Source of the DNA: Frankia alni ACN14a
Lineage (GTDB): Bacteria; Actinomycetota; Actinomycetes; Frankiales; Frankiaceae
NCBI RefSeq assembly: GCF_000058485.1
Contig: NC_008278.1
Span: 4,334,962 to 4,398,961 of the forward strand
DNA length: 64,000 nt
Direction of reading: 5' to 3'
In this document: in pieces, positions 31,500 to 64,000 of the stretch
Position numbering within the stretch: position 1 is the first letter of the stretch
Layout: every line of letters begins with the position of its first letter
The notes under the pieces: generated by a model
Seen by the model: the letters and a program-made list of their open reading frames with translations, nothing else
Databases searched by the model: none
Told to the model about the DNA's origin: nothing
Program-made: the position numbers and the translations under genes

Positions 31500-31665
31500 G
31501 TCGTAGGTCTCCCCGCCGCGCCCCGCACGCATCCCGAGGTCGGACACCGCGGCCCACCGCCGATGACGGCTGGTCGCCATGCGCGGGAGGACTGCGGTAC
31601 GAAGTGTGCGATGTGGCGCCGACCGCGCACAACGCACCGCAACCGGCTCCCGCCTGGTTCGGGCA

Positions 31666-32673: not shown

Positions 32674-32676
32674 GCG

Positions 32677-34056: not shown

Positions 34057-34228
34057 GACTCTCCCTCCCACGAACGTTCCCGGCGAGGCTACGGATCTTT
34101 CCTGGTCGAAGACCCCGATGCGCGAGCATGGCACCTTCGGGCCGAGCCGGGGGCCCACTGCCGTCAAACCTCGACGTCGACGAAGGCCTGCGCGTCGGCC
34201 ACCGGCTCGACGTCGGCAGCGTCGGCAG

Positions 34229-38166: not shown

Positions 38167-40053
38167 CTACTGAGAGTCGGGAACGATGTCGCTGCCGACG
38201 GTCAACGACAGGTGCACCGGCACCGGCACGATGTCGACGAGGCTGTGGCGATAGCTCGTCAGCCCCTCGGAAGCGGTCTCGACGGCGAATCCGTAATGCG
38301 GGTAGAGGTCCGCGACCTTGCCGTTCTTGGCAGTCCGGCGATACTCGCCGTGGACGGCGCCGTGGCCGGCCTCCCGGGCCGCCCGCAGGACCGCGCCCAG
38401 GCAGGCCTGTTCGATGCCGCGGGCGAACACCCGGCAGCTGAGCAGGAAGTTCTCGATGTGCAGCCCATCGGGGCGAGCCCGCACGAACAGCGCCCCGACC
38501 GTCCCGTTGCTGCCGAAGCGGTCGGCGGCGACGATCGAGAGCACCCGCGCGGCCGGATCCGCCGCGAAGGCCCGCACGTCGGACTGCGACCGGCGCTCGG
38601 TGGTGAGGTTGAACTGGTTGGTCCGCAGGGTGAGCTGGGACAGCCGGGCCAGATCGGCCTCACCGGCCCGTTCCAGCACCACCGAGACCCCGAGACGGTT
38701 GAGGAACTCCTCCGCCGAGCCCGCGGCCGACAGGAACTCCGTGCGCGCCGACTCCTCGTGGTAGAGCCGGGTGCGGGCCCGATCCTCCACGGTCAGCTCG
38801 GTCGTGACGAACCAGCCGTCGGCGAGCAGCCGCTCGCCGTGCAGCGCGGGCTCCCCGTCCAGACCGATCACGGACACCTCCGGCAGCTCGGCGGCGACCG
38901 CGGCGCACTCGGCCTGGCTGTCGTCGACGAACACGACGCTGTCGAGCCCGACGTTGAGATCCCGGGCCAGGTCCCGCAGGTTGCCCGGCTTCGGCGCCCA
39001 GTTCGCGATCACGCGGACGAAGTCCTCCTCGCGCAGAACCATGCCGGGATGCTCGCGCAGCGCGGCCAGCACCGTGTCCTGGTCGTTCTTGCTCACCGCG
39101 GCCAGCAACACTCCCTGTGACTGGAGCTGGCGGACCAGCCGCTGGAACCGGGCGAACGCCTCCCCGCGGTAACCGGTGCCGACCTCGACGCCCTCGACCC
39201 CGTCATCACCGAGAACGCCGCCCCACAGCGTCTCGTCGAGGTCGACTGCGAGCACCTTCCTGGTCCGTCCCCCGCGCGCGCGGACCAGATCGCTCACCTC
39301 CCGGGCGTAGGCCGCGAGCAGGGCGTCGGAGAGGTGCGCTCGGGCGTAGGCCTCGAAGCGGGGTTCGACGACGGCCACCCCCGACGCCACGATCGGGTCG
39401 AGGTCGAGCACCGTCACCGGCCCGGCCGCCGCGCCCAGGCCCAGCAGCTGCGCGTTCGCCGAGCGCCAGGCCGCGCCGAGCCGCGCCCGGGCCGGATGGT
39501 CGAGCAGCTGCGCCGACCAGTACCTGGGCAGCGGCACGGTGTTGAGCACCAGCACCCCGGAGCCGCTCGCGCGGTAGCGCTCGACCAGCCCGGTCCACAA
39601 CGCCAGTTTCTCGGTCAGCACCCGTTCGACGTCGTCCACCGTGAACGGCACGGCCACCTCGTCGAAGACGGCCGCCTGGTCCAGAACGCACAGGACGATG
39701 TCGGGCTGCTCGGCGTAGAGCGCGCTGGCCGGATCGCCCAGCTCGAAGACGTAGCTGTCGAAGTCGGCGACCCGTATCCGAGGCACCAGGCCGTGCCGGG
39801 CGAGCTGGCCGGCGAGCGCGGTCTGCAGGAGGTTCACCGTCCCATGGCCGGTGATCGTCACGGTGACGGCGGGAAGGTCGGGATGGATCCGGCGGACGGC
39901 GTCGGGGTCCACACCGGCCACCAGCCGCGCGGCGGCCAGCGCATCCGGCCCGGTGACGGCCCCGAGCAGCGGGCCGAGCGCCGGGTACCGGTCGGCCAGC
40001 AGGCCCGCTCGGTGCAGGGAGCGCACCTCGGCGAGCGCCTCGGCACTGTTCAT
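38167..40053 (-). CDS. FkbH-like glyceryl transferase/phosphatase (HAD-IIIC)
   Basis: A 628-aa FkbH-family protein. The N-terminal region (1-255) is a SGNH-like domain with YVFELGDP and VLVLNTVPLPRYWS; the HAD phosphatase domain (265-400) carries motif I DLDETLWGGVLGDDG (nucleophile Asp about 270), motif II SKND and motif IV FVDDSQAECA; the C-terminal part (440-590) is GNAT-like with LTLRTNQFNLTT. Family role: dephosphorylates 1,3-bisphosphoglycerate and loads the glyceryl unit on an acyl carrier protein, the C3 source for tetronates or methoxymalonyl units. ATG 40053 is 75 bp downstream of the last PKS gene. No fkbG/I/J/K-type gene is present, favouring the tetronate role. Confidence 0.9.
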   Translation of the reverse strand: MNSAEALAEVRSLHRAGLLADRYPALGPLLGAVTGPDALAAARLVAGVDPDAVRRIHPDLPAVTVTITGHGTVNLLQTALAGQLARHGLVPRIRVADFDSYVFELGDPASALYAEQPDIVLCVLDQAAVFDEVAVPFTVDDVERVLTEKLALWTGLVERYRASGSGVLVLNTVPLPRYWSAQLLDHPARARLGAAWRSANAQLLGLGAAAGPVTVLDLDPIVASGVAVVEPRFEAYARAHLSDALLAAYAREVSDLVRARGGRTRKVLAVDLDETLWGGVLGDDGVEGVEVGTGYRGEAFARFQRLVRQLQSQGVLLAAVSKNDQDTVLAALREHPGMVLREEDFVRVIANWAPKPGNLRDLARDLNVGLDSVVFVDDSQAECAAVAAELPEVSVIGLDGEPALHGERLLADGWFVTTELTVEDRARTRLYHEESARTEFLSAAGSAEEFLNRLGVSVVLERAGEADLARLSQLTLRTNQFNLTTERRSQSDVRAFAADPAARVLSIVAADRFGSNGTVGALFVRARPDGLHIENFLLSCRVFARGIEQACLGAVLRAAREAGHGAVHGEYRRTAKNGKVADLYPHYGFAVETASEGLTSYRHSLVDIVPVPVHLSLTVGSDIVPDSQ

Positions 40054-40128
40054 CGTCCTCGTCCTCTCACGGATCGTCTGGAGATCGGCGGGGCCGCCGG
40101 GCCGGCGGGGCCGGCGGGCTGGTCTTGC

Positions 40129-43100
40129 TCAGGTCGCGAGCCCGCGCAGGCACGACACGAGCCCGACCGAGGTGTGGTGCTCGAAGACCGCGCTGGGCGC
40201 CAGGTCCAGCCCGGTGAGCCGGCGGATCCGGCCGGCGATCTCCAGCGCGGTGAACGAGGTGACCCCGATCTCGGTCAGGTCGTCGTCGGGATCGACCGAC
40301 CCGGCGTCTCCCCCGAGCGCGTCGGCGACCGACTCGATGACCGTCCGGAGCAGGATCTCGTGGTGTTCGTGCTCGGGCACCCCGGCCAGCACGGAGACCA
40401 CCGGCTCCGCATCCAGCGCCGACTCGGCAGGGGGTGGCGGCTCCTCGGGTACCGGCGACTCGGCGGATCCCGCCGCGGGCCGGGCGGCCACGAACCAGTA
40501 GTGCTCGTGCTGGAAGGGATACGTCGGCACCGCGGCCGGGTCGGCGAACGGCCCCGGGCCCAGCACCGCGGCCCAGTCGACCGCCACTCCGCGGCCGTGC
40601 AGCGCGGCCGCCGCGGCCAGCGCGGAGCGGGCCTGGGAGTCCGGGTGGCGGATGAGCGGGGTGAGCGCGACGGCGTCCGGCTCGTCCGCCAGGCAGTCGC
40701 CGAGCATCCCGGTCATCGTCGGGTCCGGGCCGATCTCCAGGAACGTGTCGACGCCGAGCTCGCGCAGCGCCCGGACGCCGTCGTGGAAACGGACCGTCCC
40801 GCGTACCTGCTCCGCCCAGTACCCGGGATCGGCGAGCTCACCGGCGGCGGCGACCCGTCCGTCACGGTTGGACACCACCGGGACGCTCGGCTGCCCGACC
40901 CGCAGCCCGCCGGCGAAGTCCATCAGCGCCGGCAGCGCCGCGTCCATGTGGGCGGAGTGGAAGGCATGACTGACCTTCAACGCCTTGGTCCGTAGCCCCT
41001 GCGAGCGCCACCGGGCCGCGAGCCGGCGCAGCGCGTCGGCGTCACCGGAGACCACGGTGGACCGCGGGCCGTTCACGGCGGCGACCGACACCGTCCCGGC
41101 CAGCTCGGCCAGGGCGGGACGCACCTCGTCCACCGGCGCACGCACCGCGAGCATGGCGCCACCGCCCGGGGCGGCCTGCATCGCGTTGGCCCTGGCCACC
41201 ACGAGGCTCGCGACGTCGGTCAACGACAGCGCCCCGGCGACATGGGCCGCGCTGAGCTCACCGATCGAGTGCCCCAGCACGGCGGTCGGGGTGATGCCCC
41301 AGCTCCGCACGAGCCCGGCCATCGCGACGTGGGTGGCCAGCAGGGCCGGCTGGGTGAACTCGGTGCGGTGCAGCAGCCCCGCCGCCGACCCGGCCTCGGC
41401 GAAGACGACCTCCCGCAGGGACGGGCCCCCGCCGTGCTCCCGCCGGGCGTCGTCGACCGCGGCGCAGACGGCGTCGAACGCCGCCGCGTAGACCTCGGAC
41501 CGCCGGTACAGCTCCCGGCCCATCCCCTCACGCTGCGTTCCCTGGCCGCTGAACACCAGCGCCACGCTCGGCGCGGGCAGGGCGCGGGTCACCGGCGCGG
41601 CGCCGGCGAGCGCGCCGAGCTCACGGTCCAGCGCGGCGGCGTCCGCACCCGTCGCACCGGCCCGGAAGCGGAACTGGGAACGCCGGATGGCCAGCGTCCG
41701 CGCGACCGCGGCCAGATCGGTGTCCGTGGGCGCGTCGCGCAGAAACGCCCGCAGCCGGCCGGCCTGGGCCCGCACCGCGCCCGGCGTCCTGCCGGAGACG
41801 ACCCAGGTCACCGCCGTAGGCGGCGCGCCGCCCGGCCCCGGTTCACCCCGCGCCGGTCCGGCTGGGGCCGGTTCGGCTGGGGCCGGTTCGGCTGGGGCCG
41901 GTTCCGGGGGCGGGGCCTGCTCCAGGATGAGATGCGCGTTGGTGCCGCTGATCCCGAACGACGACACCCCTGCCCGGTACGGCCGGCCGAGCGCCGGCCA
42001 GGTCCGGGGTACGGCCAGGACCTCGACCGCACCGGTGGACCAGTCGACGAACTCGTTGAGCTCGGCGGCGTGCAGGGTCGGCGGCAGGACTCCGTGCCTG
42101 AAGGCCTCCAGGATCTTGATCACCCCGGCCACCCCGGCCGCGGCCTGGGTGTGCCCGATGTTCGACTTCACCGAGCCGAGGTACAGCGGGTGCTGCCGGT
42201 CCGGGTGCGCGCCGTAGGTGGCCAGCAGCGCGCCGGCCTCGATCGGATCGCCCAGCGCCGTGCCGGTCCCGTGCGCCTCGACGGCGTCGACGGCGTCCGC
42301 GCCCAGCCCGGCACCGCGCAGCGCGGCCTCGATGACCTTGCGCTGGGCGGTGCCGTTCGGTGCGGTCAGCCCGTTGCTGGCGCCGTCGGAGTTCACCGCG
42401 GAACCCCGCAGCACCGCCAGGACCGGATGGCCGTGTCGGCGCGCGTCGGAGAGTCGTTCCAGGACCACGATGCCCACGCCCTCGCCGAAGCCGGTGCCGT
42501 CGGCACCCTTGCCGAACGCCTTGCACCGCCCGTCGGCGGCGAGCCCGCGCTGGTGCGCGAACTCGACGAACACCCGCGGTGTCGCCATCACGGTCGCGCC
42601 GCCGGCCAGCGCCAGGTCGCACTCCCCGTGGCGCAGCGACTCCGCGGCGAGGTGCATCGCGACCAGCGACGAGGAGCATGCCGTGTCCAGCGTGAGGGCC
42701 GGGCCCTCGAAGCCGAAGGTGTAGGCGAGCCGCCCCGAGGCGATGCTCGCCGCGTTGCCGGTCATGAAGTAGCCGTCGAGCCCGGCCGGGCTCGCGCCCA
42801 GCGGCGGCGCGTACTCCTGGTAGATCAGGCCGGCGAACACACCGGTCCGGCTGCCCCGTAGCTCGCCGGGCACCAGCCCCGCGCGTTCGAGGGCCTGCCA
42901 CGCGGTCTCCAGCAGCACTCGCTGCTGTGGGTCCATCGCGAGGGCCTCCTTGGCGCCGACGCCGAAGAAGGCGGCGTCGAACCCGGCGGCGTCCGCGAGG
43001 AAGCCGCCGACCTCGGGGTAGTCCCCGTCGGCGGCCCAGCCGCGGTCGCGCGGGAACTCGGCGATCGCGTCGGTTCCCTCGGAGACCACCCGCCAGAGGT

Positions 43101-43254
43101 CCTCGGGTGTCTGGATCCCGCCGGGGAAGCGGCAGGCCGCGGACACGATCGCCACCGGTTCCGGGGTGCGCAGCTCGGTGAGCTCGCCCTTCACCCGGAC
43201 CAGCTCCGCGGTCGTCCACTGCAGGTAGTCGATCAGTTTCTGCTCGTCGGTCAC
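40129..43254 (-). CDS. Modular polyketide synthase, KS-AT-ACP (terminal module)
   Basis: A 1041-aa single module. Residues 1-28 are a coiled-coil N-terminal docking domain ([18 protein letters not shown]). KS at 31-443 with DTACSSS (Cys about 191), EAHGTGT and [10 protein letters not shown] at 565-878 with GHSIGE and HAFH, which predict malonyl-CoA. ACP at 968-1038 with a modified phosphopantetheine motif, [11 protein letters not shown]. No KR, DH, ER or thioesterase domain, so the product is a beta-keto thioester that must be released by other proteins. It lies 46 bp downstream of the two-module PKS gene and 75 bp upstream of the FkbH-like gene. Start ATG 43254. Confidence 0.95.
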
Positions 43255-43300
43255 GTCAGGTCACCTCCACGTCGGTCGTCCGGCGGCGGGCGGCACGGCG

Positions 43301-46300
43301 TCAGGGGCGCAGTTCCGCGTCGATGAACCGGAACAGCTCCTCGGCCTGGCTTGCGGGGGAACTGACGGTGATCTCCACCACCGGGGGAGGCACCGCCGGG
43401 CCGGCCTGCACCGGGGTGGTCGCCGGCGGGTTGGTCGCCGGCGGAGTGGTCGCCGCCGGGGTGGGCTGCGCCGGGACCAGCCGGTCGAGCAGGTACCCGG
43501 CCAGGGCGGCCGGGTTCGGGTGGTCGAACACGATCGTGGCGGGCAGGCGCAGGCCGCTCGCCCGGCCGAGCCGGTTGCGCAGTTCCACCGCGGTGAGCGA
43601 GTCGAAGCCGAGCTCCTTGAAGCTGCGATCGCCCGGGCCGTCGCCCTCGCCCGCGTCGCCGGCGGTGTGGCCGAGCACCGCCCGAACGTTGCTCACCACG
43701 AACTGTCCGACCAGCTCACGGCGACGATGTGGCTCGGCGTCCGCGAGTTGGGTGGCGAGATCCGCCACCACGGGCTGGGGGCGCGCGGCGGCCTGCGCCG
43801 GGCGGGCCAGCGACCGCAGCGGCGCCGGCAGGTCAGCCCCGGCCACCAGCCGCGCCGGGTCCAGCCGCACGGCGACCAACGCCGGCACGTCCGCGCCGAG
43901 GGCGGCGTCGAGCAGGGCGAGGCTGTGGGCCGCCGAGAGCGGCAGCACCCCGGCCCGGGCCATCCTCGCCTGGTCCGTCGCCGACAACGAGCCGGTCATC
44001 GCGCTGTCGGAACGCCACAGGCCCCACGCGACCGAGGTGGCCGCGAGCCCGTCGCGGGACCGGGCGACCGCGAGCGCGTCGAGGAACACGTTCGCCGCCG
44101 CGTAGGCGGCCTGGCCCGGGCTGCCCACCACGCCGGCCGCGGACGAGAAGAGCACGAACGCGGCGAGATCGACGTCCCGGGTGAGCTGGTGCAGGTGCCA
44201 GGCACCGTCCACCTTGGGCCGCAGCACGGCGTCGAGCCCCACCTCGGTCAGGGTGGCCAGGGTCGCGTCGCGCAGGACGCCGGCCGCATGCAGGACGGCG
44301 GTGAGGGGATGCTCGACGTCGATCCCGGCGAGGACCCGCCGCACGGCGTCGGCGTCGGCGACGTCGGCCGCCGCGAAGGTGACCCGCGCGCCCAGCTCGG
44401 TGAGCTGCGCGCCCAGCTCGTCGGCCCCCGGCGAGGCGGGCCCGCGCCGGCTGACCAGCAGCAGGTGCCGCGCGCCGTGCGCGGCGACGAGGTGGCGGGC
44501 GACGAGGGAGCCGACCCCGCCGGGCGCGCCCGTGATCAGCACTGTGCCCTCGGGGTCCAGCGGGCGCGACAGGCGCAGCACGATCTTGCCGACGTGCCGG
44601 GCCTGGCTGAGATGGCGCAGCGCCTCGGGCGCCCGCCCCGCCGCCCAGGCCGTCACCGGCGGTGGCGTGAGGACGCCGGCCCCCAGCAGGTCGGCCAGCT
44701 CGGCGAGCATCTGGCCGATCCGGTCCTCGCCGGCCTCCATCAGGTCGAAGGCGCGGTACTCGACGCCGTGCCGGGCCTGGATCTGCGCCGGGTCACGGAC
44801 GTCGGTCTTGCCCATCTCGACGAACCGGCCGCCGGGTCCGAGCAGGCTCAGGGAGGCGTCGACGAACGCACCGGACAGCGAGTTCAGCACGACGTCGACA
44901 CCGCGCCCGCCCGTCGCCAGGCGGATGTGCTCGGCGAAGGCCACCTCACGCGAGTTGGCCAGGTGATCCGCCGCGAGACCGAGGGTGGCCAGGAACGGCC
45001 ACTTCGCGGGGCTCGCGGTGCCGTAGACGGTCACCCCCCAGTGTCGGGCGAGCTGGATCGCCGCGCCGCCGACCCCCCCGGCCGCGGAGTGCACCAGCAA
45101 CGACTCCCCCGGCTGTACCCGGGCCAGGTCGCGCAGTGCGTAGTACGCGGTGAGGTAGACGGCGGGGATGGCCGCCGCCCGGGCGAAGCTCAGCCCGGCC
45201 GGGATCGGCACCAGCAGCCGGTGGTCGGTCACCGCGACCGGGCCGATCCCACCGGAGATCAGGCCCATCACGGCGTCGCCGGGTTCGATCCCGGTGACGT
45301 CCGCTCCGGTCTCGACCACGATGCCGGCACCCTCCGTGCCCAACTCGGCCTCGCCGGGGTAGAGCCCCAGCGCGAGCATGGCGTCGCGGAAGTTCAGCCC
45401 GCTGGCGCGGATCGCGACGCGGACCTGGCCCGGTTCGAGCACCGGCCGTGGCTGCCCCAGCAGGACCAGATCGTCGACGGTGCCGCCCTCGCCGCGGGCC
45501 AGCCGCCAGTCCCCCGCCGCCGGTGCGACCAGCGCCGGGCGCCAGCCGCCCAGCCGCGCGGCCAGCAGGACGCCGTCGCGCAACGCCACCTGGGGCTCGC
45601 CGCCGGCGACCGCGTCGCGGAGCAGGTCGGTCGACGGATCCGGCCGGTCGGTGTCAACCAGCACGATCCGGCCCGGCTCCTCCGCCTGCACGCTGCGCAC
45701 CAGCCCCCAGATCGGGGCCTGCGCCAGCGCACCCACGCGGTCGCCGGGCACGGCGGCCACCGCGTCGCGAGTCAGGACCACGAACACCGCCTCCCGCAGC
45801 CGTTCGTCGGCCAGCAGGCGCCGCAGGTCGTCGAGCACACCGGCCAGCGCGGTGCGGGTGGCCTGCGGCACCGGGCCCGTCGCGGCGGGCAGGAGCAGGA
45901 CCAGCGCGTCGGGCCGGTCCCGGCCCTCGTCGAGCGCGCCGAGGGCGGCGGCGAGATCCGGCTGGTCACCGCCGGAACCCACCGTCCACAGCCGGGCCGG
46001 ACGGGCGCGGTGCGCGCCGTCCACCGGTTCCCAGCCGAGCCGGTACAGCAGGCCCGCCAGGCCAGCGACGTCCTGCGGTCGCACGGCGTCCAGCTCGCCC
46101 GCGTCCACGGTGCGCAGCGCCACCTCGTCGACCGCCGCCACCGGTGTTCCATCCGGCGCGAACAGGTGGACGCCGACGGCGTCCGCTCCGGTGCGGCGCA
46201 GCCGGATCCGAAGCCGGCCGGCCGGCGGCGCGGGCGCGAAACGACGCAGGCCGCGCCAGACGAAGGGGAGTCGCACCGCGCCGTCCACGGCGCCAAGCCC

Positions 46301-53758: not shown

Positions 53759-53776
53759 CGCCCGCGCCTTTTCCCT

Positions 53777-56700
53777 TCAGTCCTTCAGCTCGCGGTCCAG
53801 CAACCCGAAAATCTCATCATCGGAGGCTGAATCCATTCCAAAGGCTCGTTCGTCGGCGTTGTTTTCCCCGGCGCCGAGCGTTCCGAGTGCGGCGCGCAGC
53901 GCCCGGACCAGATCACCGCGCCGCTCGTCGTCGGCGGGTAGCCCCGCGGTGGTGGCGACCAGCCCGTCCAGGGCGGCCAGATCCAACGCGGCCTGCGCCG
54001 GGGCGCACAGCTCCACCAGATGATCGGTCAACGCCCTGGCGGTCGGATGGTCGAACAGCAGCGTGGTGGGTAGGCGCAGTCCGACGTCCTCGCTGAGCCG
54101 GTTGCGCAGTTCCAGCGCGGTCAGGGAGTCGAGTCCGATGTCGAACAGCCCTCGGTCCGCCGGCACTGCGGCCCGCCCGCCGAGCCCGAGCACCTCGGCG
54201 ATCCGGGCCAGCACGGCTTCCTCGACGATCCTGCGCGCCGCAGCCGCGTCGAGGCCCGCCACCGTCTGCGGCAGCCGCACCGGCCGGGCCGCGGCGGCAC
54301 CACCAGCACCGCCGACCCCGTCGGCCCCGCCGTACTCTCCGGACGCGACCGGTCCGGCGGGTGCCGACGCGCCGGCGGTCGCCGGCACCAGATCGGTCAG
54401 GACCGCCGGCAGTTGACCGGCCCGGCGGGCCAGGGCGCGCGGGTCGAATCGGGCGGGCACGAGCAGCGCCGCCGTCCCGCCCGAGCCCCGGTCAGGCAGG
54501 GGCTGATCGAGCAGGGCCTGGTCGAGTGGCTGCTGGTCGAGTGGCTGCTGGTCGAGTGGCGGCTGGTCGAGGAGGGCCTGGTCGAGCAGGGCGAGGCCCT
54601 CGTCCACGGTGAGCGGGAGCAGGCCGAGCCGGCCGAGCCGGGATCGGTCGGCGGCGGCGAGCTCGCCGGCCATCCCGGTCTCCCAGGGCCCCCACGCCAG
54701 GGAGGTCGCCGGTAGCCCCACGGCCCGACGGTGCGAGGCGAGGGCGTCGAGGAAGGTGTTCGCCGCGGCGTAGGCACCCTGACCGGCGTTGCCGACGATC
54801 CCGGCGATCGAGGAGAACAGCACGAAGGCGTCCAGCCCCGACCCGGCGGTGAGGCGATGCAGGTTCCAGGCCGCGTCGATCTTCGGCCGTAGCACCCGGT
54901 CCACCTGCTCGGCGGTCATGCCCGCCAGGATCGCGTCGTCGAGGACGCCGGCCGCGTGCACCACGGCGGTGAGCGGATGCTCGGTGCCGACGCCGGCCAG
55001 CAGCGCCTGCGCGGCGTCGTGGTCGGCGAGGTCGCAGGCCGCGACGGTCACCTGCACGCTCGCCGAGCGCAGTTCGCCGGCGAGCGCGTGCAGCCCGGGG
55101 TCCGCGTCGCCGCGCCGGCTGACCAGCAGCAGGTGCCGCGCGCCGTGCGCGAGGGCGAGCTGGCGGGCGACCACCCCGCCGAGGGCCCCGCCCGCCCCGG
55201 TGACCAGCACCGTCCCGGCGCCGAACCGTCCGGTGCCCGGCCGCGGTCCCGGCCGGGGGCCGGGGCTGGGCACCGCCCGCAGCCGCGGCCGGTACGCTCG
55301 GCCGCGGCGCAGCGCGAGCTGGGCGGGCCGGGCCGCGATCGCGTCGGGAAGCAGCGCCAGCGAGTCCGGCCGCCCGTCGACGTCGATCAGGCTGATCCGC
55401 CCCGGGTACTCGGCCTGCGCGGTGCGCACCAGCCCCCAGACCGGCGCGTCCGACAGGCGCGGTACCGCGTCGCCGCCGCCGGCCGCGACCGCGCCGCGGG
55501 TGACCACGACCAGACTGGTCTGCTCCGCGGTTGCGACGATCAGCTCCCGGACCGCCTCGATCCCCGCTCGCGCCGCGGTCGCCGGGTCGCCGTGCGGGCC
55601 GGGGACGTCGCCGTCCGGCGCCCCACCGGGCGAGACGACGGCGACCAGCACCTGCGGGCCCGCGCCGGGGTCGCCGGCGGGCTCGGTGACCTCGCGGGCG
55701 TCGGTGACGATCGGGAAGGGCAGGCGGAGCTCGGCGGCGTCGGCGCCGAGGTCGAGCACGGTGACGCCGCGCGGTGCCGGCGCCGGTACGAGTGTCTCGG
55801 GCGCCCAGTCCACCTCGTACGCCGACGGTGGCGCGGCCCCGGCCCCCGCCCCCCGCAGCAGGGACTCCTCGACCGGCCGCAGGGCGATCTCGCCCACGGA
55901 GAACACCGGGCTGCCCGCGGTGTCCACCGCGGCAAGGGAGAACGACGTCGCGCCGGTCGGTGTGACCCGGACCCGCAGCGGGCCGGTCGGGACGCCGTGC
56001 GCCCCGTGCACGCGGATGTCGCGCCAGGTGTGGGGAACGTCGATGGTGCCGTCGTCGCGGTCCTCGCCCTCCCCCGCCGCGACGATCCACCCGTGCAGCG
56101 CCGCGTCGAGCAGCTCGGCGGGCCCGCCGCCGGCGACGTCCACCTCGGACACCAGGTGTTCGCCGTCGCGCCACAGGGCCCGCAGGCCCTGGAAGGACGG
56201 CCCGTAGTCGTAGCCCCGCTCGGCGAGGGCCGGGTAGACCCCGGCGACGTCCACCGGCCGCGCCGCCGGCGACGGCTCGCCCGACCAGGGCTCGCCGGCG
56301 GCCGGACCGCCCGCGTCGGCGGCGGCCACGAGGCTGGCCTGGGCGTGCAGGGTCCAGTCCTCGGCGCCGGGAACCCGACCGAAGATGCGGGCCGCGGCAC
56401 CGTCGGGTGTGCGCTCCAGGGTGACCCGCAGCCGCACGTCGCCGCCGCCGAGCAGCACCGGGGCGAGCAGCGTCAGCTCCTCCACCGCGGTCGTGCCCAC
56501 CCGGCCGGCCAGCCAGCCGAACAGGTCCACGACCGCGGCGGCGGGCAGCAGCGGTGCGCCGTGCAGCGCGTGGTCGGCCAGCCATGGCTGGCGCCGCGTC
56601 GAGAGCACCCCCGTGTACACGCTGTGCGCGCCGCCCGGCATCTCGACCGCCGCCGAGAGCAACGGGTGGTCCGGCTCGTCCATGCCGAGCGCGGCGGCGG

Positions 56701-59700
56701 TGGCGGGCTCGGCCGGCGGGTCGAGCCAGAGCCGCTCGCGGGCGAAGGCGTAGGTGGGCAGCGGGACGGTCACCGCGTCGTCGCCGAACAGCGCCCGCCA
56801 GTCCCACCGCACGCCGGCGATGAACGCCCGGGCGACGAACGACCCGATCGCCGCCAGCTCGCCGTGGCGTCGGTCCAGCGCGGCCAGGGCCACGACGCCG
56901 TCGCCGAGCTCGCAGTCGTCGGCCAACGGGGCCAGCACGGCGTCCGGCCCGACCTCCAGGAAGGTGGCGGCGCCCAGCTCTCGCAGCCGGGTCAGCGCGT
57001 CGGCGAACCGGACGGTCCCGCGGACCTGATCCACCCAGTGCCCGGCCGAACCCAGCGTCGGCGCATCGACCTCACGCGCGGTCAGGGTGGACACCAGGGT
57101 GCGGGTCATCGGGCCGGTGGCCGGCCGCCCGGCCGCGTCCCGGAACCGCTCGAGCATCGGGTCCATCCGGGCCGAGTGGAACGCATGGCTGACGGACAGC
57201 CGCCGGGTGCGGTGGCCCCGCTCGGCCAGGCGGGCGGCCAGCTCCACGACCTCGGTCTCGTCCCCGGAAATCACCACCGACCGCGGGCCGTTGACCGCCG
57301 CGAGGTCGACCCGCGACGCGGCCTGCTCGGCGAGGCTGCGTACCTCGTCGGCGGAGGCGCGCACCGAGACCATCGCGCCACCGCCGGGCAGCTCGTCCAT
57401 CAGGCCACCCCGGGCGGCCACCAGCGTGACGGCGTCGGCCAGCCGCAACGCCCCGCTGACGTGCGCGGCGGCGAGCTCGCCGATGGAGTGCCCGGCGACG
57501 AGATCGGCCGGCAGGCCCCAGGACTCCAGCAGGCGGAACAGCGCCACCTCGACGGCGAACAGCGCGGCCTGGGTGTACCTGGTCTGGTCGAGCCGGCCCG
57601 GTTGCGCGCCGGTGACGACCGCACGCACGTTCAGGCCCGCGACCCGGGCGAACTCGTCGCACACCGCGTCATACGCCGCCGCGTACACCCCGAACGCCTG
57701 GTAGAGGCCGGTTCCCATGCCGACACGCTGGCTGCCCTGACCGCTGAACAACACGGCCCTCGCGCCCGTCACCGGCTGGCCGGCGAACACCAGCGGGAGC
57801 GCCCCGGACGGGCCGGGGGGTACGACCTCGACCGGCCCGGGACCGGCGATCGCATCGAGTGCGGCGATCCGTTCGAGGCCGGAGATCAGCTCCTCGCGGG
57901 TGCGGCCGAGCACGACCGCCCGGTGCTCGAACGCGCTGCGGGTGGTCGCCAGCGACAGGGCGACGTCGGCGGCCCGTTGACCGGGTTCGTCCAGCAGGTG
58001 CTGCCGCAGCCGAACCGCCTGCCGGCGCAGCCCGTCCGGGGTGCGCGCGCTGAGCACCCAGGGCAGCAGCGGCGTTTCGGGACCGGCCTCGCCGGGGGCT
58101 GTTCCCCCGGCCGCGCTGACGCCATGCTCCGGCCTCGGCTCGGGGATCTGCGGGTGGACCTCCTCGGAGCCCGGCCCGGTCATCTGCTCGGCGTCCTGCT
58201 CGAGCACGATGTGGGCGTTGGTGCCGCTGATACCGAACGACGACACCGCGCTGCGGCGTGGCCGGCCCGAGTCGGGCCAGGGGAGCAGCGTGGTCGGCAC
58301 CGTGACGGTGCCCTGCGACCAGTCGATGTGCCCGCTCGGGCGGTCGAAGTGCAGGGTGGCGGGCACGGCGCCGTTGCGCATCGCCAGCACCAGCTTGATG
58401 ACCCCGGCCACGCCCGCCGCGGCCTGGGTGTGGCCGAGGTTCGACTTGAGCGAGCCCATCAGCAGGGGGCGGCCCTCGTCGCGGTCCCGGCCGTAGGTCG
58501 CCAGTACCGCACCCGCCTCGATCGGGTCGCCGAGCCGAGTCCCCGTGCCATGTGCCTCCAGCACGTCGACGTCGGCGGCCCGCAGTCCCGCGTCGCGCAG
58601 CGCGGCCCGGATCACCCGCTCCTGTGACGGGCCGTTCGGCGCCGTCAGGCCGTTGCTCGCGCCGTCCTGGTTCACCGCGGAGCCACGCATCAGCGCGAGC
58701 ACCCGGTGGCCGTGGCGGCGCGCGTCGGAGAGCCGTTCGAGTACCAGCACCCCGGCGCCCTCCGCCCAGGCGGTGCCGTCCGCGGCGGCCGAGAACGGCT
58801 TGCATCGGCCGTCCGGCGCGAGCCCCCGCTGCCGGCTGAACTCGACGAAGGTCGCCGGGCTTGCCATCACGGTCACGCCGCCCACCAGCGCGAGGCTGCT
58901 CTCACCCAGGCGCAGCGACCGGGCGGCGTCGTGCATCGCGACCAGCGAGGACGAGCACGCGGTGTCGATCGTCACCGCCGGGCCCTCCAACCCGAGGACG
59001 TACGACACCCGCCCGGAGGCGACACTGCCGGCGCTGCCGCTGACCAGGTATCCCTCCAGCTCGTGCGCGCCGCCGCGACGCTGGTGGACCCGCGCCCCGT
59101 AGTCGGAGTACATGACGCCGACGAACACCCCGCACGACGTGCCGCGCAGGGACGCCGGATCGATCCCGGCGTCCTCGACCGCCTCCCAGGCGGTCTGCAA
59201 CAGCAACCGCTGCTGCGGATCGACGGCGAGCGCCTCCCGCCGGCTGATGCCGAAGAACTCCGCGTCGAACTCGGCCGCGTCGTGCAGGAAGCCACCATGG
59301 CGGACGTAGGAGGTGCCCGGCCGCTCGGGATCCGGATCAAACAGGTCGGGGTCCCAACCCCGGTCGTCGGGGAACTCGGTGATCGCGTCGGTGCCCGCGG
59401 TGACCAGCCGCCACAGCTCGTCCGGCGTGCGCACGCCGCCGGGGAGACGGCAGGCCATCCCGACGATCGCGATCGGGTCCTCGCCGGTCCGCCCCGGCCC
59501 GCCCGCCGGTGCCGCGCCGGCCGCCTCGGCGCCGGCAGCCTCCGGTTCCGTGCCACCCTGCTGACTGGCGATGAGCCGGATCAGCGCGGTGGGGTTGGGA
59601 TGGTCGAACACCACCGTGCTCGCCAGCCGGACGCCGAACGCGGCGGTGAGGCGGTTACGCAGGTCGACGGCCATCAACGAGTCGAACCCGAGCTCGACGA

Positions 59701-62700
59701 ACGCCCGGTCGGCGTCGATGTCCGCCCGACTGGGGTGGCCGAGAACCTCGGCCACCGTGTCCAGAACCAGACCGGCGACGTCGGCCTGCGTCGCCGCAAC
59801 CGCCGCGAGTGGCGCCCGAGCGCGAGTCGCAGGCTCGCCGGAGCGCCCGAGCCGCCCGATCGCACGCGGATGGAGGTTCGCCGCGACGACCGACGGTACG
59901 CCGGCGCGCAGCGCCCGGTCGAACAGCGCAAGCCCCTCCGCCACGGTCATCGACCCGATGCCGGCGCGTTCAAGTCGAGCCAGGTCCCGCTCGGTGAGCC
60001 CGCCGGCCATCCCGGTGTCGACCTCCCACCGACCCCAGTGGATGGTCAGGGCGGACAGCCCAGCCCGGCGACGTTCGTGGCCGACCGCGTCGAGGGCGCT
60101 GTTCGCCGCGGCGTAGTTGCCCTGCCCGGCGGTGCCGAGGATCCCGGCGATCGAGCCGAACAGCACGAAGGCGTCCAGCTCGTCGCCACGGGTCAGCTCG
60201 TCGAGGTGCCGGGCCGCGAGGGCCTTCACGGCGACCACCGCGTCGACGGCGGCTTCCGAGAGCCGCTCGACGACGGCGTCCTCGGTCGTCCCGGCCGCAT
60301 GGATCACCGCGCTCAGCGGGGCGTCGAGGCCGGCGATCAGCTCGGCCAGGTCCTCGCGGCGGGTCACGTCGCAGGCCAGGACGAGCACGCGGGCCCCGAG
60401 CCCGGCGAGCTCCGCCTCGACGCGGGCGGCGTCGGGATGCGCCGGACCGGACCGGCTGACCAGCACAAGGTTGCGTACACCATGACGTTGCACGAGGTGA
60501 CGCGCGAGCTCGCGGCCCAGGGCACCGGTGCCGCCGGTGAGGAGCACGCTTCCGCCCGCGGCGCTGCGCGGCAGCAGCGGACCGGACGCCCCGCCGCCGT
60601 CGACCTGCCCCGCCGAACCCGCCGAACCCGCCGGCTCCACCGGTTCCGCCGCGTCGACCGATTCCGCCAGGTCTGCCGATTCCGCCAGGTCCGCCGCGTC
60701 CGCCAGGTCCGCCGCGTCCACCGGGTCTGCCGCGTCCACCGGGTCCAGCCTTGGGACCAACACCGTGGCGTCACGGATCGCGGCCCGGTCCACGGCGGCC
60801 CACTGGTCGGGCACCGTGACCGATCCGGCCTGGCCCACGTCGAGCAGCGCGAAGCGGCCCGGATGCTCCGCCTGCGCGGCCTGAACGAGGCCCCACACGG
60901 CGGCGACGACCGGGTCCGCAGCCTCACCTGCAGCCGTCGCGACGCCCCGGGTGACGAACACCAGCCGGGTGGACGCCGTCCGCTCGTCGGCCAGCCAGCG
61001 GGTGACGGCGAGCCTGGCCGCGTTCGCCGCGGCGCGGGGGTCGTCGCCAGGCGTCGGCGCGAACAGCACCGTGGCGGGCAGCGGCTCGCCGACGTCGCCC
61101 AGCAGCGCGTCGAGGTCGGCGAACGCCGCGTCCGCCGCCCCGCCGACGATGACGGTGCCGGCGCCGGGCGTGGTCGCCGGCCCCGCCTGCTCCCAGCCCA
61201 GGCGGTACAGCTCGGCCGCCGACGCCAGCGCGCGCAGCCGGACCCGCGCGACGGTGAGCAGCGGGGCGCCGGTCGGGTCGGTCAGCTCCAGTCGGTAGGT
61301 GCCGGGCGTGGCCGGCACGAGCCGCACGCGCGCCTGTCCCCCCCGCGCCTGCCGCTCCCGCACCGCATGCAGCCGGACCCCGTCAAGCGCGTACGGCACC
61401 CAGCGCGGGCCGCCGAGGTCGTTGAGCGCCAGGACATGCAGGGCGACGTCCACGACAACCGGATGCAGGTGGTAGTGCGCGCTGTCGGCCAGGACCGGCG
61501 TCGGGACCTCGATCTCGGCAGACAGCGTGCCGCCGTCGCGCCAGGCCGCGCGCAGCCCGCGGAAGGCCGGCCCGTACTGATAGCCGTGCTCGGCCAGCAG
61601 CTCGTACGTGGCCGTCGCGTCGCCGAGGTCGAGGCGCTCGCCCCTGCGCTCCCACGATTCTGCGGGTGCACGGGAGCCGGCGTCGGACGGGCCGGGGGCC
61701 TCGCCCGCCGGGCCCTGGTCGGTGAGCAGCGCGGTGGCACACGTGGTCCACGCGGCGCGCCCGTCCGGCCGGCCGGACCGAGCCCGCAGGACGCACTCAC
61801 CGGAGGGCGCGACCGTCGCCTGGAACGCGGCCTGCCCCTCGCCGTCCAACACCAGCGGGCTGTGCACGACGAAGTCGTCGACGCCCGGCCGGCCGGTGGA
61901 CGCGCCCGCGGCCCGGACGAGTTCGAGCAGCACCGCCGCGGGCACGAGGGTGCGCCCGTCGATCCGGTGGTCGGCCAGCCACGGCTGCGTGTGCGACGAG
62001 AGCAGGCCGGTGAACATCGAACCGGCCCCGTTCGGCAGCTCCACCGCCGCCGCCAGCAGCGGGTGAGGCGTGCCGTCCAGCCCCAGATCGGTGGGCCGCG
62101 CCGGCTCGGGCGCGGGATTGAGCCAGTACCGCCTGGTCTGGAACGGGTAGGTGGGCAGCTCGACGTACCGGCCGCCGGCGAAGAACGGCACGAGGTCCAC
62201 CGCCGTCCCGGCGACGTGCACTCGGCTGAGCGCCTCGCGCACGGACGCCGGCTCGGGGCGCCGCGGGTGCAGCAGGGGCACGGCGAGGACCTCGTCCACG
62301 GTGTCCTGCACCATCGCGGACAGCGACCCGTCGGGGCCTAGTTCGACGAACCGGGTCGTCCCCGCGCCGTGTGCGGCGCGGACGGCGTCGGCGAACCTGA
62401 CCGGGCGGCGAAGCTGCTCCAGCCAGTAGTCCGCCCCGGACATCTCCTCGGCGTCGGCGATCCGGCCGGTCAGGGTGGACACGATCGACGTCGCGGCGGG
62501 GGCGAACGTGACCTCGGCGAGGACCGCGCGCCAGCGTGCGAGCACGTCGTCCATGTGCGGCGAGTGGAAGGCGTGGCTGACCGCGAGCCGGGTGGCCCGG
62601 CGGCCGCCGTCCTTCCAGCGCGCGACGAGCTGGTCCACCGCGTCGGCGTCGCCGGACAGCACGACCGAGGCGGGCCCGTTGACGGCGGCGACGGCGACCC

Positions 62701-64000
62701 GGCCGCCGGTCTCGGCGACCAGGTCCCCGGCCTCGTCCTCGGTGGCGGCGAACGCGGCCATCGCGCCGCCCTCGCGGGCGGACTGCATCAGCTCACCGCG
62801 GGCGGCGACCAGGGCGCAGGCGTCGGACAGCCCCAGGATCCCGGCGACATGCGCGGCGGCCAGCTCGCCGACCGAATGGCCGAGCAGGAGGTCCGGTGTG
62901 AGCCCGTGGCTTTCGACCATCCGGTACAGCGCGACCTGCAGGGCGAACAGCGCCGGCTGGGCATACCGGGTCTGGCGCAGCCGGTCGGCGTCACCGTCGA
63001 CGAGGTCGTGCAGGCGGACGCCGAGCAGCGGGTCGAGGTGCGCGGCGACCTCGTCGAAGGCCGCGGCGTAGGCCGTCGACGCCGCCAGCAGGCCCGCGCC
63101 CATGCCCCGCCGCTGGGAGCCCTGGCCGGTGAACAGCAACGCCAGCCGCTGATCGGGCTGGGCCCGCCCGCGCCTGAGCGCGGGGTGCGCGGTCCCGCCG
63201 GCCAGCGCCCGCAGCGCCGGCAGGACGGTGTCGGCGTCGACCAGCACCGCCGCGCGCTCGGTGAACTGGGTCCGGTGGCGCGCCAACGTGAACGCGACAT
63301 CGACCAGCGCGGGCGCGCCCGCGGAGGCGAGCAGGTCACCGAGGGCGCTCGCCTGCGCCTGCAGCGCCGACTCCGTCCGCGCGGACAGCAGCAGCGGCAC
63401 CGGGCCGGCGTCCACAGCCGACTCGGTCGTGTCGGGCCGGTCGCGCGTGTCGGTCGTGTCGGAGGTGTCGGAGGTGTCGGAGGTGTCGGTGGGTGCCTGT
63501 TCGAGGATGACGTGCGCGTTCGTCCCACTGATACCGAACGACGACACCCCCACCCGCCGCGGCCGACCCCCCTGCGGCCACCCCACCTCCTCCCGCAACA
63601 ACGCCACCCCCGACCCCACCCACTCCACCCGCGGCGACGGCTCCTCCACAAACAACGTCCGCGGCAACACCCCCGCCCGCAACGCCATCACCATCTTGAT
63701 AACCCCACCCACACCCGCCGCCGCCTGCGTATGCCCCACATTCGACTTCAACGACCCCAACCACAACGGCACCTCACGACCACCACCCCCATACACCGCC
63801 GCCAACGCCCCCACCTCAATCGGATCCCCCAACCGCGTCCCCGTCCCATGACCCTCCACCACATCCACCTCACCCGCCGACACCCCCGCATCCGCCAAAG
63901 CCCGCACAATCACCCGCTCCTGCGCCCGACCACTCGGCGCCGTCAACCCATTCGACGCACCATCCTGATTCACCGCCGAACCCGCCACCACCGCCAACAC
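53777..64000 (-). CDS. Modular polyketide synthase, two modules KS-AT-DH-KR-ACP, 5' end beyond window
   Basis: The last 3407 residues of a larger protein; the start lies to the right of the window. Residues in this fragment: KS C-terminal third 1-165 (EGHGTGT, KSNVGHTQ), AT 280-590 (GHSVGE, HAFH: malonyl), DH 640-928 (HRIDGRTLVP, DVALH), KR 1147-1337 (TGGTGALG, NYAAAN), ACP 1410-1470 (LGFDSL); KS 1503-1930 (DTACSSS), AT 2077-2390 (GHSIGE, HAFH: malonyl), DH 2440-2733 (HALHGAPLLP, LDAALH), KR 2923-3113 (TGAGGALG, LDD for B-type), ACP 3257-3330 (IGLDSL). A C-terminal docking helix ends with DDEIFGLLDRELKD. The next PKS gene starts 18 bp downstream. Both modules should leave a trans double bond. 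Confidence 0.96.
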   Translation of the reverse strand: MLAVVAGSAVNQDGASNGLTAPSGRAQERVIVRALADAGVSAGEVDVVEGHGTGTRLGDPIEVGALAAVYGGGGREVPLWLGSLKSNVGHTQAAAGVGGVIKMVMALRAGVLPRTLFVEEPSPRVEWVGSGVALLREEVGWPQGGRPRRVGVSSFGISGTNAHVILEQAPTDTSDTSDTSDTTDTRDRPDTTESAVDAGPVPLLLSARTESALQAQASALGDLLASAGAPALVDVAFTLARHRTQFTERAAVLVDADTVLPALRALAGGTAHPALRRGRAQPDQRLALLFTGQGSQRRGMGAGLLAASTAYAAAFDEVAAHLDPLLGVRLHDLVDGDADRLRQTRYAQPALFALQVALYRMVESHGLTPDLLLGHSVGELAAAHVAGILGLSDACALVAARGELMQSAREGGAMAAFAATEDEAGDLVAETGGRVAVAAVNGPASVVLSGDADAVDQLVARWKDGGRRATRLAVSHAFHSPHMDDVLARWRAVLAEVTFAPAATSIVSTLTGRIADAEEMSGADYWLEQLRRPVRFADAVRAAHGAGTTRFVELGPDGSLSAMVQDTVDEVLAVPLLHPRRPEPASVREALSRVHVAGTAVDLVPFFAGGRYVELPTYPFQTRRYWLNPAPEPARPTDLGLDGTPHPLLAAAVELPNGAGSMFTGLLSSHTQPWLADHRIDGRTLVPAAVLLELVRAAGASTGRPGVDDFVVHSPLVLDGEGQAAFQATVAPSGECVLRARSGRPDGRAAWTTCATALLTDQGPAGEAPGPSDAGSRAPAESWERRGERLDLGDATATYELLAEHGYQYGPAFRGLRAAWRDGGTLSAEIEVPTPVLADSAHYHLHPVVVDVALHVLALNDLGGPRWVPYALDGVRLHAVRERQARGGQARVRLVPATPGTYRLELTDPTGAPLLTVARVRLRALASAAELYRLGWEQAGPATTPGAGTVIVGGAADAAFADLDALLGDVGEPLPATVLFAPTPGDDPRAAANAARLAVTRWLADERTASTRLVFVTRGVATAAGEAADPVVAAVWGLVQAAQAEHPGRFALLDVGQAGSVTVPDQWAAVDRAAIRDATVLVPRLDPVDAADPVDAADLADAADLAESADLAESVDAAEPVEPAGSAGSAGQVDGGGASGPLLPRSAAGGSVLLTGGTGALGRELARHLVQRHGVRNLVLVSRSGPAHPDAARVEAELAGLGARVLVLACDVTRREDLAELIAGLDAPLSAVIHAAGTTEDAVVERLSEAAVDAVVAVKALAARHLDELTRGDELDAFVLFGSIAGILGTAGQGNYAAANSALDAVGHERRRAGLSALTIHWGRWEVDTGMAGGLTERDLARLERAGIGSMTVAEGLALFDRALRAGVPSVVAANLHPRAIGRLGRSGEPATRARAPLAAVAATQADVAGLVLDTVAEVLGHPSRADIDADRAFVELGFDSLMAVDLRNRLTAAFGVRLASTVVFDHPNPTALIRLIASQQGGTEPEAAGAEAAGAAPAGGPGRTGEDPIAIVGMACRLPGGVRTPDELWRLVTAGTDAITEFPDDRGWDPDLFDPDPERPGTSYVRHGGFLHDAAEFDAEFFGISRREALAVDPQQRLLLQTAWEAVEDAGIDPASLRGTSCGVFVGVMYSDYGARVHQRRGGAHELEGYLVSGSAGSVASGRVSYVLGLEGPAVTIDTACSSSLVAMHDAARSLRLGESSLALVGGVTVMASPATFVEFSRQRGLAPDGRCKPFSAAADGTAWAEGAGVLVLERLSDARRHGHRVLALMRGSAVNQDGASNGLTAPNGPSQERVIRAALRDAGLRAADVDVLEAHGTGTRLGDPIEAGAVLATYGRDRDEGRPLLMGSLKSNLGHTQAAAGVAGVIKLVLAMRNGAVPATLHFDRPSGHIDWSQGTVTVPTTLLPWPDSGRPRRSAVSSFGISGTNAHIVLEQDAEQMTGPGSEEVHPQIPEPRPEHGVSAAGGTAPGEAGPETPLLPWVLSARTPDGLRRQAVRLRQHLLDEPGQRAADVALSLATTRSAFEHRAVVLGRTREELISGLERIAALDAIAGPGPVEVVPPGPSGALPLVFAGQPVTGARAVLFSGQGSQRVGMGTGLYQAFGVYAAAYDAVCDEFARVAGLNVRAVVTGAQPGRLDQTRYTQAALFAVEVALFRLLESWGLPADLVAGHSIGELAAAHVSGALRLADAVTLVAARGGLMDELPGGGAMVSVRASADEVRSLAEQAASRVDLAAVNGPRSVVISGDETEVVELAARLAERGHRTRRLSVSHAFHSARMDPMLERFRDAAGRPATGPMTRTLVSTLTAREVDAPTLGSAGHWVDQVRGTVRFADALTRLRELGAATFLEVGPDAVLAPLADDCELGDGVVALAALDRRHGELAAIGSFVARAFIAGVRWDWRALFGDDAVTVPLPTYAFARERLWLDPPAEPATAAALGMDEPDHPLLSAAVEMPGGAHSVYTGVLSTRRQPWLADHALHGAPLLPAAAVVDLFGWLAGRVGTTAVEELTLLAPVLLGGGDVRLRVTLERTPDGAAARIFGRVPGAEDWTLHAQASLVAAADAGGPAAGEPWSGEPSPAARPVDVAGVYPALAERGYDYGPSFQGLRALWRDGEHLVSEVDVAGGGPAELLDAALHGWIVAAGEGEDRDDGTIDVPHTWRDIRVHGAHGVPTGPLRVRVTPTGATSFSLAAVDTAGSPVFSVGEIALRPVEESLLRGAGAGAAPPSAYEVDWAPETLVPAPAPRGVTVLDLGADAAELRLPFPIVTDAREVTEPAGDPGAGPQVLVAVVSPGGAPDGDVPGPHGDPATAARAGIEAVRELIVATAEQTSLVVVTRGAVAAGGGDAVPRLSDAPVWGLVRTAQAEYPGRISLIDVDGRPDSLALLPDAIAARPAQLALRRGRAYRPRLRAVPSPGPRPGPRPGTGRFGAGTVLVTGAGGALGGVVARQLALAHGARHLLLVSRRGDADPGLHALAGELRSASVQVTVAACDLADHDAAQALLAGVGTEHPLTAVVHAAGVLDDAILAGMTAEQVDRVLRPKIDAAWNLHRLTAGSGLDAFVLFSSIAGIVGNAGQGAYAAANTFLDALASHRRAVGLPATSLAWGPWETGMAGELAAADRSRLGRLGLLPLTVDEGLALLDQALLDQPPLDQQPLDQQPLDQALLDQPLPDRGSGGTAALLVPARFDPRALARRAGQLPAVLTDLVPATAGASAPAGPVASGEYGGADGVGGAGGAAAARPVRLPQTVAGLDAAAARRIVEEAVLARIAEVLGLGGRAAVPADRGLFDIGLDSLTALELRNRLSEDVGLRLPTTLLFDHPTARALTDHLVELCAPAQAALDLAALDGLVATTAGLPADDERRGDLVRALRAALGTLGAGENNADERAFGMDSASDDEIFGLLDRELKD
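54503..54592 (-). repeat. 15-bp coding repeat, six copies, at the end of the last KR of the two-module fragment
   Basis: Units of CTGGTCGAGTGGCTG and variants (54503-54517 to 54578-54592) encode an LDQQP/LDQAL tract after the KR domain. It is an in-frame expansion of the normal LALLDQAL helix. Confidence 0.85.
60600..60745 (-). repeat. Degenerate repeat in KR linker
   Basis: Degenerate 12-15-bp units rich in GCGGACCTGGC-like motifs encode the acidic tract DAADPVDAADLADAADLAES before the KR nucleotide-binding motif of the first module. A comparable SDT-rich tract (63430-63490) follows the partial KS. Confidence 0.65.

Follow-up and report, generated by a model that had tools for sequence, protein, structure and literature searches.

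The locus and its genes

Here we analyse a 64,000-nucleotide stretch of the genome of Frankia alni ACN14a (contig NC_008278.1, positions 4,334,962 to 4,398,961; the window hereafter), whose right-hand part carries the left 26 kb of a polyketide synthase (PKS) gene cluster that probably specifies an abyssomicin-family spirotetronate. Four minus-strand open reading frames (ORFs) lie in this part of the window, at 38167-40053, 40129-43254, 43301-53758 and 53777-64000, the last of them open at the window edge. Coordinates above 64000 extend the window numbering into the genome, a single contig of 7,497,934 bases; on this scale the 58 kb cluster spans 38167 to 96611 (genome positions 4373128-4431572). 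The genes that carry the argument are listed below, with KS for ketosynthase, AT for acyltransferase, DH for dehydratase, ER for enoylreductase, KR for ketoreductase, ACP for acyl carrier protein and TE for thioesterase.

38167..40053, minus strand: FkbH-like glyceryl transferase/phosphatase, AbyA2 homologue (TIGR01686, 302.6 bits)
40129..43254, minus strand: PKS B3, extension module 6, KS-AT(malonyl)-ACP with an N-terminal docking domain and no TE (Pfam, motifs)
43301..49663 (border approximate), minus strand: PKS B2, second part, extension module 5, KS-AT(methylmalonyl)-DH-ER-KR-ACP (Pfam; KR S-Y-N, DH His/Asp)
49664..53758 (border approximate), minus strand: PKS B2, first part, extension module 4, KS-AT(methylmalonyl)-DH remnant-ACP (Pfam, motifs)
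53777..59476, minus strand: PKS B1, extension module 3, KS-AT(malonyl)-DH-KR-ACP plus a C-terminal tail (Pfam, motifs)
59477..64000, continuing past the edge, minus strand: PKS B1, extension module 2, in-window part AT(malonyl)-DH-KR-ACP (Pfam, motifs)
64000 to 73075, minus strand: rest of PKS B1, comprising the remainder of module 2, module 1 (methylmalonyl, DH-KR) and a KSQ-AT(malonyl)-ACP loading module
73973-75052: AbyA5-like eliminase, an alpha/beta hydrolase (AbyA5, E 2.6e-108)
75049-75804: AbyA4-like acyltransferase (2-oxoacid_dh, E 3.3e-22)
75801-76031, minus strand: discrete glyceryl ACP of the GWDS type, about 76 aa
76077-77108: KSIII (PDB 5by7, E 2.7e-123)
82037-82582: AOC-barrel protein, 181 aa (PF18678 AOC_like, E 6.7e-42)

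The assembly line

Within the window, Pfam and NCBIfam models divide the PKS ORFs into KS-AT-ACP without a TE, KS-AT-DH remnant-ACP-KS-AT-DH-ER-KR-ACP, and two AT-DH-KR-ACP modules. With E-values of 6.6e-59 to 9.7e-185 for the ketoacyl-synthase and acyltransferase matches, chance is no issue for these calls. In biosynthetic order, the AT motifs read HAFH, HAFH, YASH, YASH and HAFH, corresponding to malonyl, malonyl, methylmalonyl, methylmalonyl and malonyl. An earlier reading of the window alone (the original prediction) had described precisely these five modules, two malonyl DH-KR, an unreduced methylmalonyl, a methylmalonyl DH-ER-KR and a malonyl one, followed by an FkbH-like protein and no thioesterase domain. 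The domain searches bear this out, TIGR01686 identifying the FkbH-like protein and Pfam finding no TE in B3. For extension module 4 (the extension modules are M1 to M6 below) the earlier wording, no working reduction, is right and could have been stronger: the DH is degenerate, its motif lacking the GxxxxP part, and Pfam calls no KR there, the only KR of B2 lying in M5. The KRs of M1, M2, M3 and M5, by comparison, retain the catalytic S-Y-N, and the DHs of the same modules retain His and Asp.

B1 is 6432 aa long and its gene reaches to 73075, so that, as foreseen, only the loading module and M1 lie beyond the window edge. The protein starts with a KSQ (DTAQSS)-AT(GHSIG, HAFH)-ACP loading module, and M1 reads KS-AT(GHSQG, YASH)-DH-KR-ACP. 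The whole line, distributed over three proteins, is therefore KSQ-malonyl loading, M1 methylmalonyl DH-KR, M2 and M3 malonyl DH-KR, M4 methylmalonyl, M5 methylmalonyl DH-ER-KR and M6 malonyl. Set against the published aby and abm module tables, this is the line of the abyssomicin family: KSQ loading plus six extension modules on three proteins, with DH-KR in the first three, no reduction, DH-ER-KR, and no reduction. The proposal that the line is of abyssomicin type and that the five in-window modules represent extension modules 2-6 thus agrees with the complete reading. As an aside, the ACP of M6 (in 40129-43254) has the motif GVTSF in place of GxDSL; this domain is the one expected to hand the chain to the tetronate enzymes.

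The extender unit of module 1

M1 had been expected to be a malonyl DH-KR module. DH-KR is what we find, but the AT carries GHSQG and YASH and is of methylmalonyl type. It is 60% identical to the AT of M4 and 52% to that of M5; with the malonyl ATs in its own line it shares 36-40% identity. In a FastTree phylogeny of 80 AT domains, drawn from the loci that we read and excluding ATs shorter than 250 aa or scoring 120 bits or less, the 28 YASH domains, M1 included, make up one side of a split with support 1.0 and none misplaced. Note that some of the 80 are duplicates (Kutzneria buriramensis C29 and L074 overlap) and that seven ATs without a motif class were checked by eye and are malonyl-type in the tree; two KS domains also lack a motif class. 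Motif, identity and tree thus concur in assigning M1 to the methylmalonyl type, which predicts a backbone built with three propionates. Such a backbone differs from that of abyssomicin C, which has two, and on this point the original prediction, which had proposed the abyssomicin C skeleton, does not stand.

The recognised methylation types can be separated in the same way. A type I abyssomicin would have a malonyl M1 and only two propionates, and the M1 AT is YASH; type IIB, exemplified by abyssomicin 2, would have propionate at M1 and M4 and acetate at M5, and the M5 AT is YASH. The three methylmalonyl units of type IIA, with methyls at C4, C6 and C12, agree by motif and tree with YASH at M1, M4 and M5. 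We had at first considered three propionates to be unprecedented among abyssomicins, an idea that we dropped given the abm module table and the definition of type IIA.

Tetronate genes and a candidate cyclase

To the right of position 64000, a KSIII, a glyceryl ACP, an acyltransferase/eliminase pair and a small barrel protein had been anticipated, and all of them are present. Either several further modules upstream or the lack of the KSIII and glyceryl ACP genes had been named in advance as speaking against an abyssomicin-type cluster; we looked for both and found neither. At the level of sequence, the cluster holds the full tetronate set A1-A5 (KSIII, FkbH, discrete ACP, acyltransferase and eliminase) and an AbyU-type AOC-barrel cyclase. 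Seven of the ten related stretches searched hold a match to the FkbH-like protein, at 59-67% identity. The ACP had at first seemed to be absent, as a genome-wide Pfam PP-binding search returned no stand-alone ACP near the cluster. This was overturned by reading the interval from KSIII to A4 in all three frames of the minus strand: the GWDS-type ACP had been masked by an overlong A4 ORF, and ACP matches sit between KSIII and A4 in seven of the ten stretches. A glyceryl ACP fused to B1, suggested by a GMDS motif near the C-terminus, was rejected; the tail is docking-like and the domain scan calls one ACP there.

All 11 aligned members of the barrel family match PF18678, the family of the 181-aa Frankia protein. 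Compared on its own with solved structures, the barrel protein has its best matches in 9qp8, annotated 'Rhs family protein' (3.7e-12), AbmU (4e-11) and, lower, the 5dyv chain (2.3e-8), which we take to be AbyU. A profile built from 11 homologues places AbmU first (1.5e-15), followed by 9qp8 and the AbyU chains (5dyv chain 2.2e-13; down to 2.6e-13). The protein is likely to be a [4+2] cyclase, the face of the reaction not being fixed by the profile matches. Each of the two cytochromes P450 of the cluster scores about 310 bits against AbyV (7QAN) and 420 bits against the CYP105-type P450-SU1.

Predicted product and pathway

Read from start to end, the modules would give an acetyl start, a triene, a C12 methyl, a C7 ketone, a C6 methyl, a C5 methylene, a C4 methyl and a C3 ketone, with M4 leaving the C7 ketone and M5 making the C5 methylene. 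If the later steps follow the aby pathway, FkbH would load a glycolytic C3 unit onto the stand-alone ACP, and KSIII would help to couple this unit to the chain and release the tetronate. A4 would then acylate and A5 eliminate to leave an exocyclic methylene, the spiro-cyclohexene would be closed in a [4+2] reaction of the AOC-barrel enzyme, and epoxidation of the ring, on a trisubstituted alkene as for AbmV, would fall to a P450. Seventeen polyketide carbons and three from glycolysis would make a C20 backbone methylated at C4, C6 and C12. The masses computed for the predicted spirotetronate, C20H24O5, and the oxidised product, C20H24O6, are [M+H]+ 345.170 and 361.165.

We consider it likely, on this evidence, that the cluster encodes an abyssomicin-family spirotetronate with the type IIA methylation pattern, the pattern of the ent-homoabyssomicins and abyssomicins M-X. 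Note that type IIA refers here to the methyl pattern only, spiro stereochemistry (type I or II) not being predictable here.

Several points weigh against this assignment. The extender units are predicted from AT motifs, which is short of proof. The barrel protein is distant from AbyU and AbmU (37-60 bits) and its best single-sequence match is 9qp8; because of this distance, its reaction and face are ones that we infer. Both P450s are closer in score to other CYP105-type chains than to AbyV. The C4 and C12 methyls of type IIA are taken from a review, and the C6 methyl is deduced from abyssomicin 2 together with the stereocentres of ent-homoabyssomicin A. The LDD motif is present in the KRs of M1 and M3 and absent from that of M2 (near window position 60535), so that the alcohol configuration could differ there and the geometry of one olefin is uncertain. 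Finally, we found no product reported for the cluster in open-licence papers.

The alternative that survives best, unlikely as we consider it, is that the tetronate is made as predicted while the AOC-barrel enzyme carries out some other cyclisation, or none, so that the product would be a linear or differently folded tetronate. The low scores of the barrel against AbyU and AbmU leave room for this, as do PloI4 and Tsn15 among its weak matches; TedJ is a Diels-Alderase of tetrodecamycin, a tetronate that bears a decalin (PMC12380092), and abyssomicin X is linear (PMC6100094). In the profile search, however, AbmU is the top match with the AbyU chains close behind, PloI4 is far lower and Tsn15 is absent from the matches to 0.01. 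Moreover, in the chain that reaches the enzyme, triene, ketone and methylene would be spaced as they are in abyssomicin precursors.

Comparison with known abyssomicin clusters

Having set out the predicted type IIA spirotetronate, we can place it among the described systems. In aby, the loading module and all three triene modules use acetate, and abyssomicin C contains two propionates (PMC3625739). In abm, M1 and M4 use propionate and M5 acetate (PMC5819245), and abyssomicin 2 is methylated at C6 and C12 (PMC11318650). Type IIA compounds are described as carrying methyls at C12 and C4, and type IIB compounds, abyssomicin 2 among them, at C12; the stereocentres listed for ent-homoabyssomicin A are at positions 4, 6, 12 and 13 (PMC6100094).

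The aby cluster for atrop-abyssomicin C, from Micromonospora/Verrucosispora maris AB-18-032 (PMC3625739), has the same loading and six extension modules on three proteins split 4/2/1, the same DH-KR triene modules, and the same unreduced propionate module followed by a propionate DH-ER-KR module. It shares with the Frankia cluster the A1-A5 set, an AbyU-type cyclase, two P450s, a luciferase-type oxygenase, the MFS and TetR genes, the ABC genes F1-F4 and the SARP and LuxR regulators. The two differ in that M1 is methylmalonyl-type in Frankia, that the Frankia M4 is without a KR domain whereas aby has a mutated KR, that the Frankia FkbH gene lies behind B3 whereas its aby counterpart lies between A1 and A3, and that the Frankia cyclase scores 37 bits against the AbyU chain. 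The abm cluster for abyssomicin 2 and the neoabyssomicins, from Streptomyces koyangensis SCSIO 5802 (PMC5819245), has propionate in the first (C12 methyl) and fourth extension modules, as in Frankia, and the same reductive pattern. Its fifth extension module, however, uses acetate, leaving no C4 methyl, where Frankia has a methylmalonyl-type AT, and its fourth retains an inactive KR where the Frankia M4 has none. The closest likeness is to type IIA, that is, ent-homoabyssomicins A/B and abyssomicins M-X (abs cluster, Streptomyces sp. LC-6-2), whose methyls at C12 and C4 (PMC6100094) and, as deduced above, C6 match the Frankia prediction. Note that this likeness is one of methyl pattern, as described in the literature.

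A group of related clusters

Scanning named genomes with an AbyA5 profile yielded 103 confirmed relatives, and we retained the best 80. The AbyA5 tree, of 82 rows, places the window together with ten others in a clade supported at 100/100; the nearest group, at a weak 84/34, contains the AbyA5 of M. maris. Nine loci are 66-73% identical: three from Microbispora, one from Planotetraspora, two from Streptomyces, and one each from Amycolatopsis sp. GM8, Actinocorallia sp. API 0066 and Actinokineospora sp. NBRC 105648. The M1 AT is YASH in all six of the nine that are readable there, the other three ending before M1. AT order and module build agree in all six lines read from loading module to M6, namely the window, Microbispora sp. 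H11081, Amycolatopsis GM8, Actinocorallia, Actinokineospora NBRC 105648 and a second cluster of Actinokineospora auranticolor, keeping in mind that the loading AT of A. auranticolor is uncalled, that some malonyl-type ATs read QAFH or HGFH, that the Amycolatopsis M2 DH and the Actinocorallia M5 KR fail the motif test and that the Actinocorallia M4 DH passes it. M3-M6 also agree in Planotetraspora, and the domain scan calls no KR in M4 of the other clade lines.

YASH at M1 is also found outside this clade, in loci L064, L068, L075 and L076 and in S. monomycini, whose line has different modules further along; it is thus the combination of features, and not M1 alone, that marks the group. Two genomes add further variants. 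Of the two clusters in A. auranticolor, the first, which was read to module 2, has a malonyl-type M1, and the other is of the window type and has a methylmalonyl-type M1 (L139-L141, G402:C1; L071). K. buriramensis has, besides C29, a line on C13 (L142, G401:C13; M4-M6 only) with a KR-less methylmalonyl M4 and a malonyl M5, which is abm-like, and a 55% barrel homologue.

These comparisons also bear on whether the product might be abyssomicin C or another type I abyssomicin after all, made with two propionates and a malonyl M1. Such a product would fit modules 2-6, the division of the line over three proteins and the accessory genes, all of which match aby, but the M1 AT has GHSQG/YASH and groups with the methylmalonyl-type ATs. 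Malonyl-type M1 modules are instead seen in other lines, complete and aby-like in Acrocarpospora and Actinacidiphila and partial in Herbidospora, A. auranticolor cluster 1 and K. buriramensis C29. We regard a type I product as very improbable.

Among 35 Frankiaceae genomes, seven have any match to the barrel at 1e-6 and one, F. alni ACN14a, has a close match, the next being 53% identical. Such patchiness is in keeping with horizontal transfer, as put forward in PMC7176366.

Earlier reports and expression leads

In 2011, Gottardi et al. (PMC3625739) described FRAAL4069-4097 of F. alni ACN14a (CT573213.2) as a 'putative spirotetronate' cluster in which most aby genes have homologues. Gene content, position and the identity of the genome mark this as the present locus; FRAAL4108 is placed at 4444365, just after the cluster, and the NifH match of the genome, at 7420694-7421506, agrees with the start of 7420646 given for nifH, FRAAL6813 (PMC10252897). 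The description by Gottardi et al. compares gene content and, in the parts consulted, gives neither a module reading nor a product. The locus, in print since 2011, is not new; what we add is the chemotype reading, the conserved clade and the expression leads. The newness in the earlier suggestion of a related but new tetronate is limited by that report. A survey that mined AbyU homologues lists Frankia clusters, and neither 'ACN14a' nor 'alni' occurs in its main text (PMC7176366). In the open-licence literature we found no further paper giving a product or module reading for the cluster. An 'Abyssomicin 10%' antiSMASH match in a binned nodule Frankia (PMC8674757) is not shown to be this cluster.

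Two proteome studies offer hints of expression. FRAAL4072, annotated 'Polyketide synthase', was 4.56-fold over-abundant in Alnus nodules, though at a low level, its normalised spectral abundance factor being printed as 0.000 (PMC8951365); since it falls within FRAAL4069-4097, where the PKS genes are B1-B3, it should be one of these three. In the same study most secondary-metabolite proteins were undetected or under-abundant, and the printed top list contains no other PKS of FRAAL4069-4097. FRAAL4095, 'FMN-dependent alkanal monooxygenase', was 4.2-fold higher in propionate- than in fumarate-fed nitrogen-fixing cells (PMC10252897). By its name, and by gene order if TetR is FRAAL4097, it would be the luciferase-type oxygenase at 93412-94404. 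We treat both signals as leads, suggesting that the cluster is expressed in part; they are no proof of a product and leave our confidence in its identity where it was. That the cluster is intact in sequence yet silent, or yields a shunt product, is highly unlikely: no product has been reported in the literature searched and domains judged active by motif may be inactive, but the PKS ORFs are uninterrupted, the core KR and DH residues are retained, and both proteome signals, FRAAL4072 in nodules (PMC8951365) and FRAAL4095 on propionate (PMC10252897), point the other way.

Published accounts call the abyssomicins the first natural compounds known to inhibit p-aminobenzoate synthesis (PMC3625739, PMC6100094), and where the methyls sit reportedly influences type I/type II folding (PMC11318650). 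With its predicted three-propionate backbone, a cluster that is complete and lies in a closed genome provides exact masses to seek in a model nitrogen-fixing alder symbiont, and the same masses can be sought in Microbispora, Amycolatopsis, Actinocorallia and Actinokineospora. The clade also supplies naturally occurring variants of the PKS and the cyclase that lie single methyl choices apart from aby and abm. The two proteome signals raise the question of whether the symbiont makes an abyssomicin-type compound in culture or in planta. One might speculate, although we doubt that all of it will hold, that the clade is a distinct abyssomicin subfamily (methylmalonyl M1, KR-lost M4) spread over actinomycete families, and that F. 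alni makes a C20 homoabyssomicin in nodules, possibly one that retains the enone and acts on the folate synthesis of competitors. If true, an abyssomicin would be expressed in symbiosis, and its mass could be tested for directly.

Cluster limits and remaining genes

The other genes of the cluster are as follows.

About 73131-73898: type II thioesterase
77224-78144: SARP regulator
79087-81939: LuxR/LAL-type regulator (sequence plus AAA match)
82579-83601: aldo-keto reductase
83966-85153: P450 (first)
85288-90647: ABC F4-F1
91587-93077: MFS transporter
93412-94404: luciferase-type oxygenase
94674-95900: P450 (second)
95982-96611: TetR

Each picked non-PKS gene from FkbH to TetR, together with the ACP and the thioesterase, is matched in five or more of the ten related stretches. 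Outside these limits, none of nine genes to the left of FkbH (26160-38125) and neither of two to the right of TetR (96886 and 97770) is matched in the ten. Because the matches stop at FkbH and TetR, we place the cluster at 38167-96611, about 58 kb, limits that are valid within the stretches compared. One ABC permease was left out of this comparison, and a P450 and another ABC permease were represented in it by conserved antisense frames. Two plus-strand ORFs, 84128-85174 and 88019-88672, had been kept by gene picking on third-position GC content (GC3) and were dropped as genes, being antisense to that P450 and that ABC permease.

The Rfam family ASpks (RF01782) matches the plus strand at 52616-52690 and 58445-58519, just over the gathering score and antisense to the KS DNA of M4 and M3; these matches probably stem from coding sequence that KS domains have in common and not from RNA genes. 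Elsewhere in the genome, two more modular-PKS-like regions, at about 4497000-4532500 and at 375000-409000, show carrier-protein matches in long ORFs.

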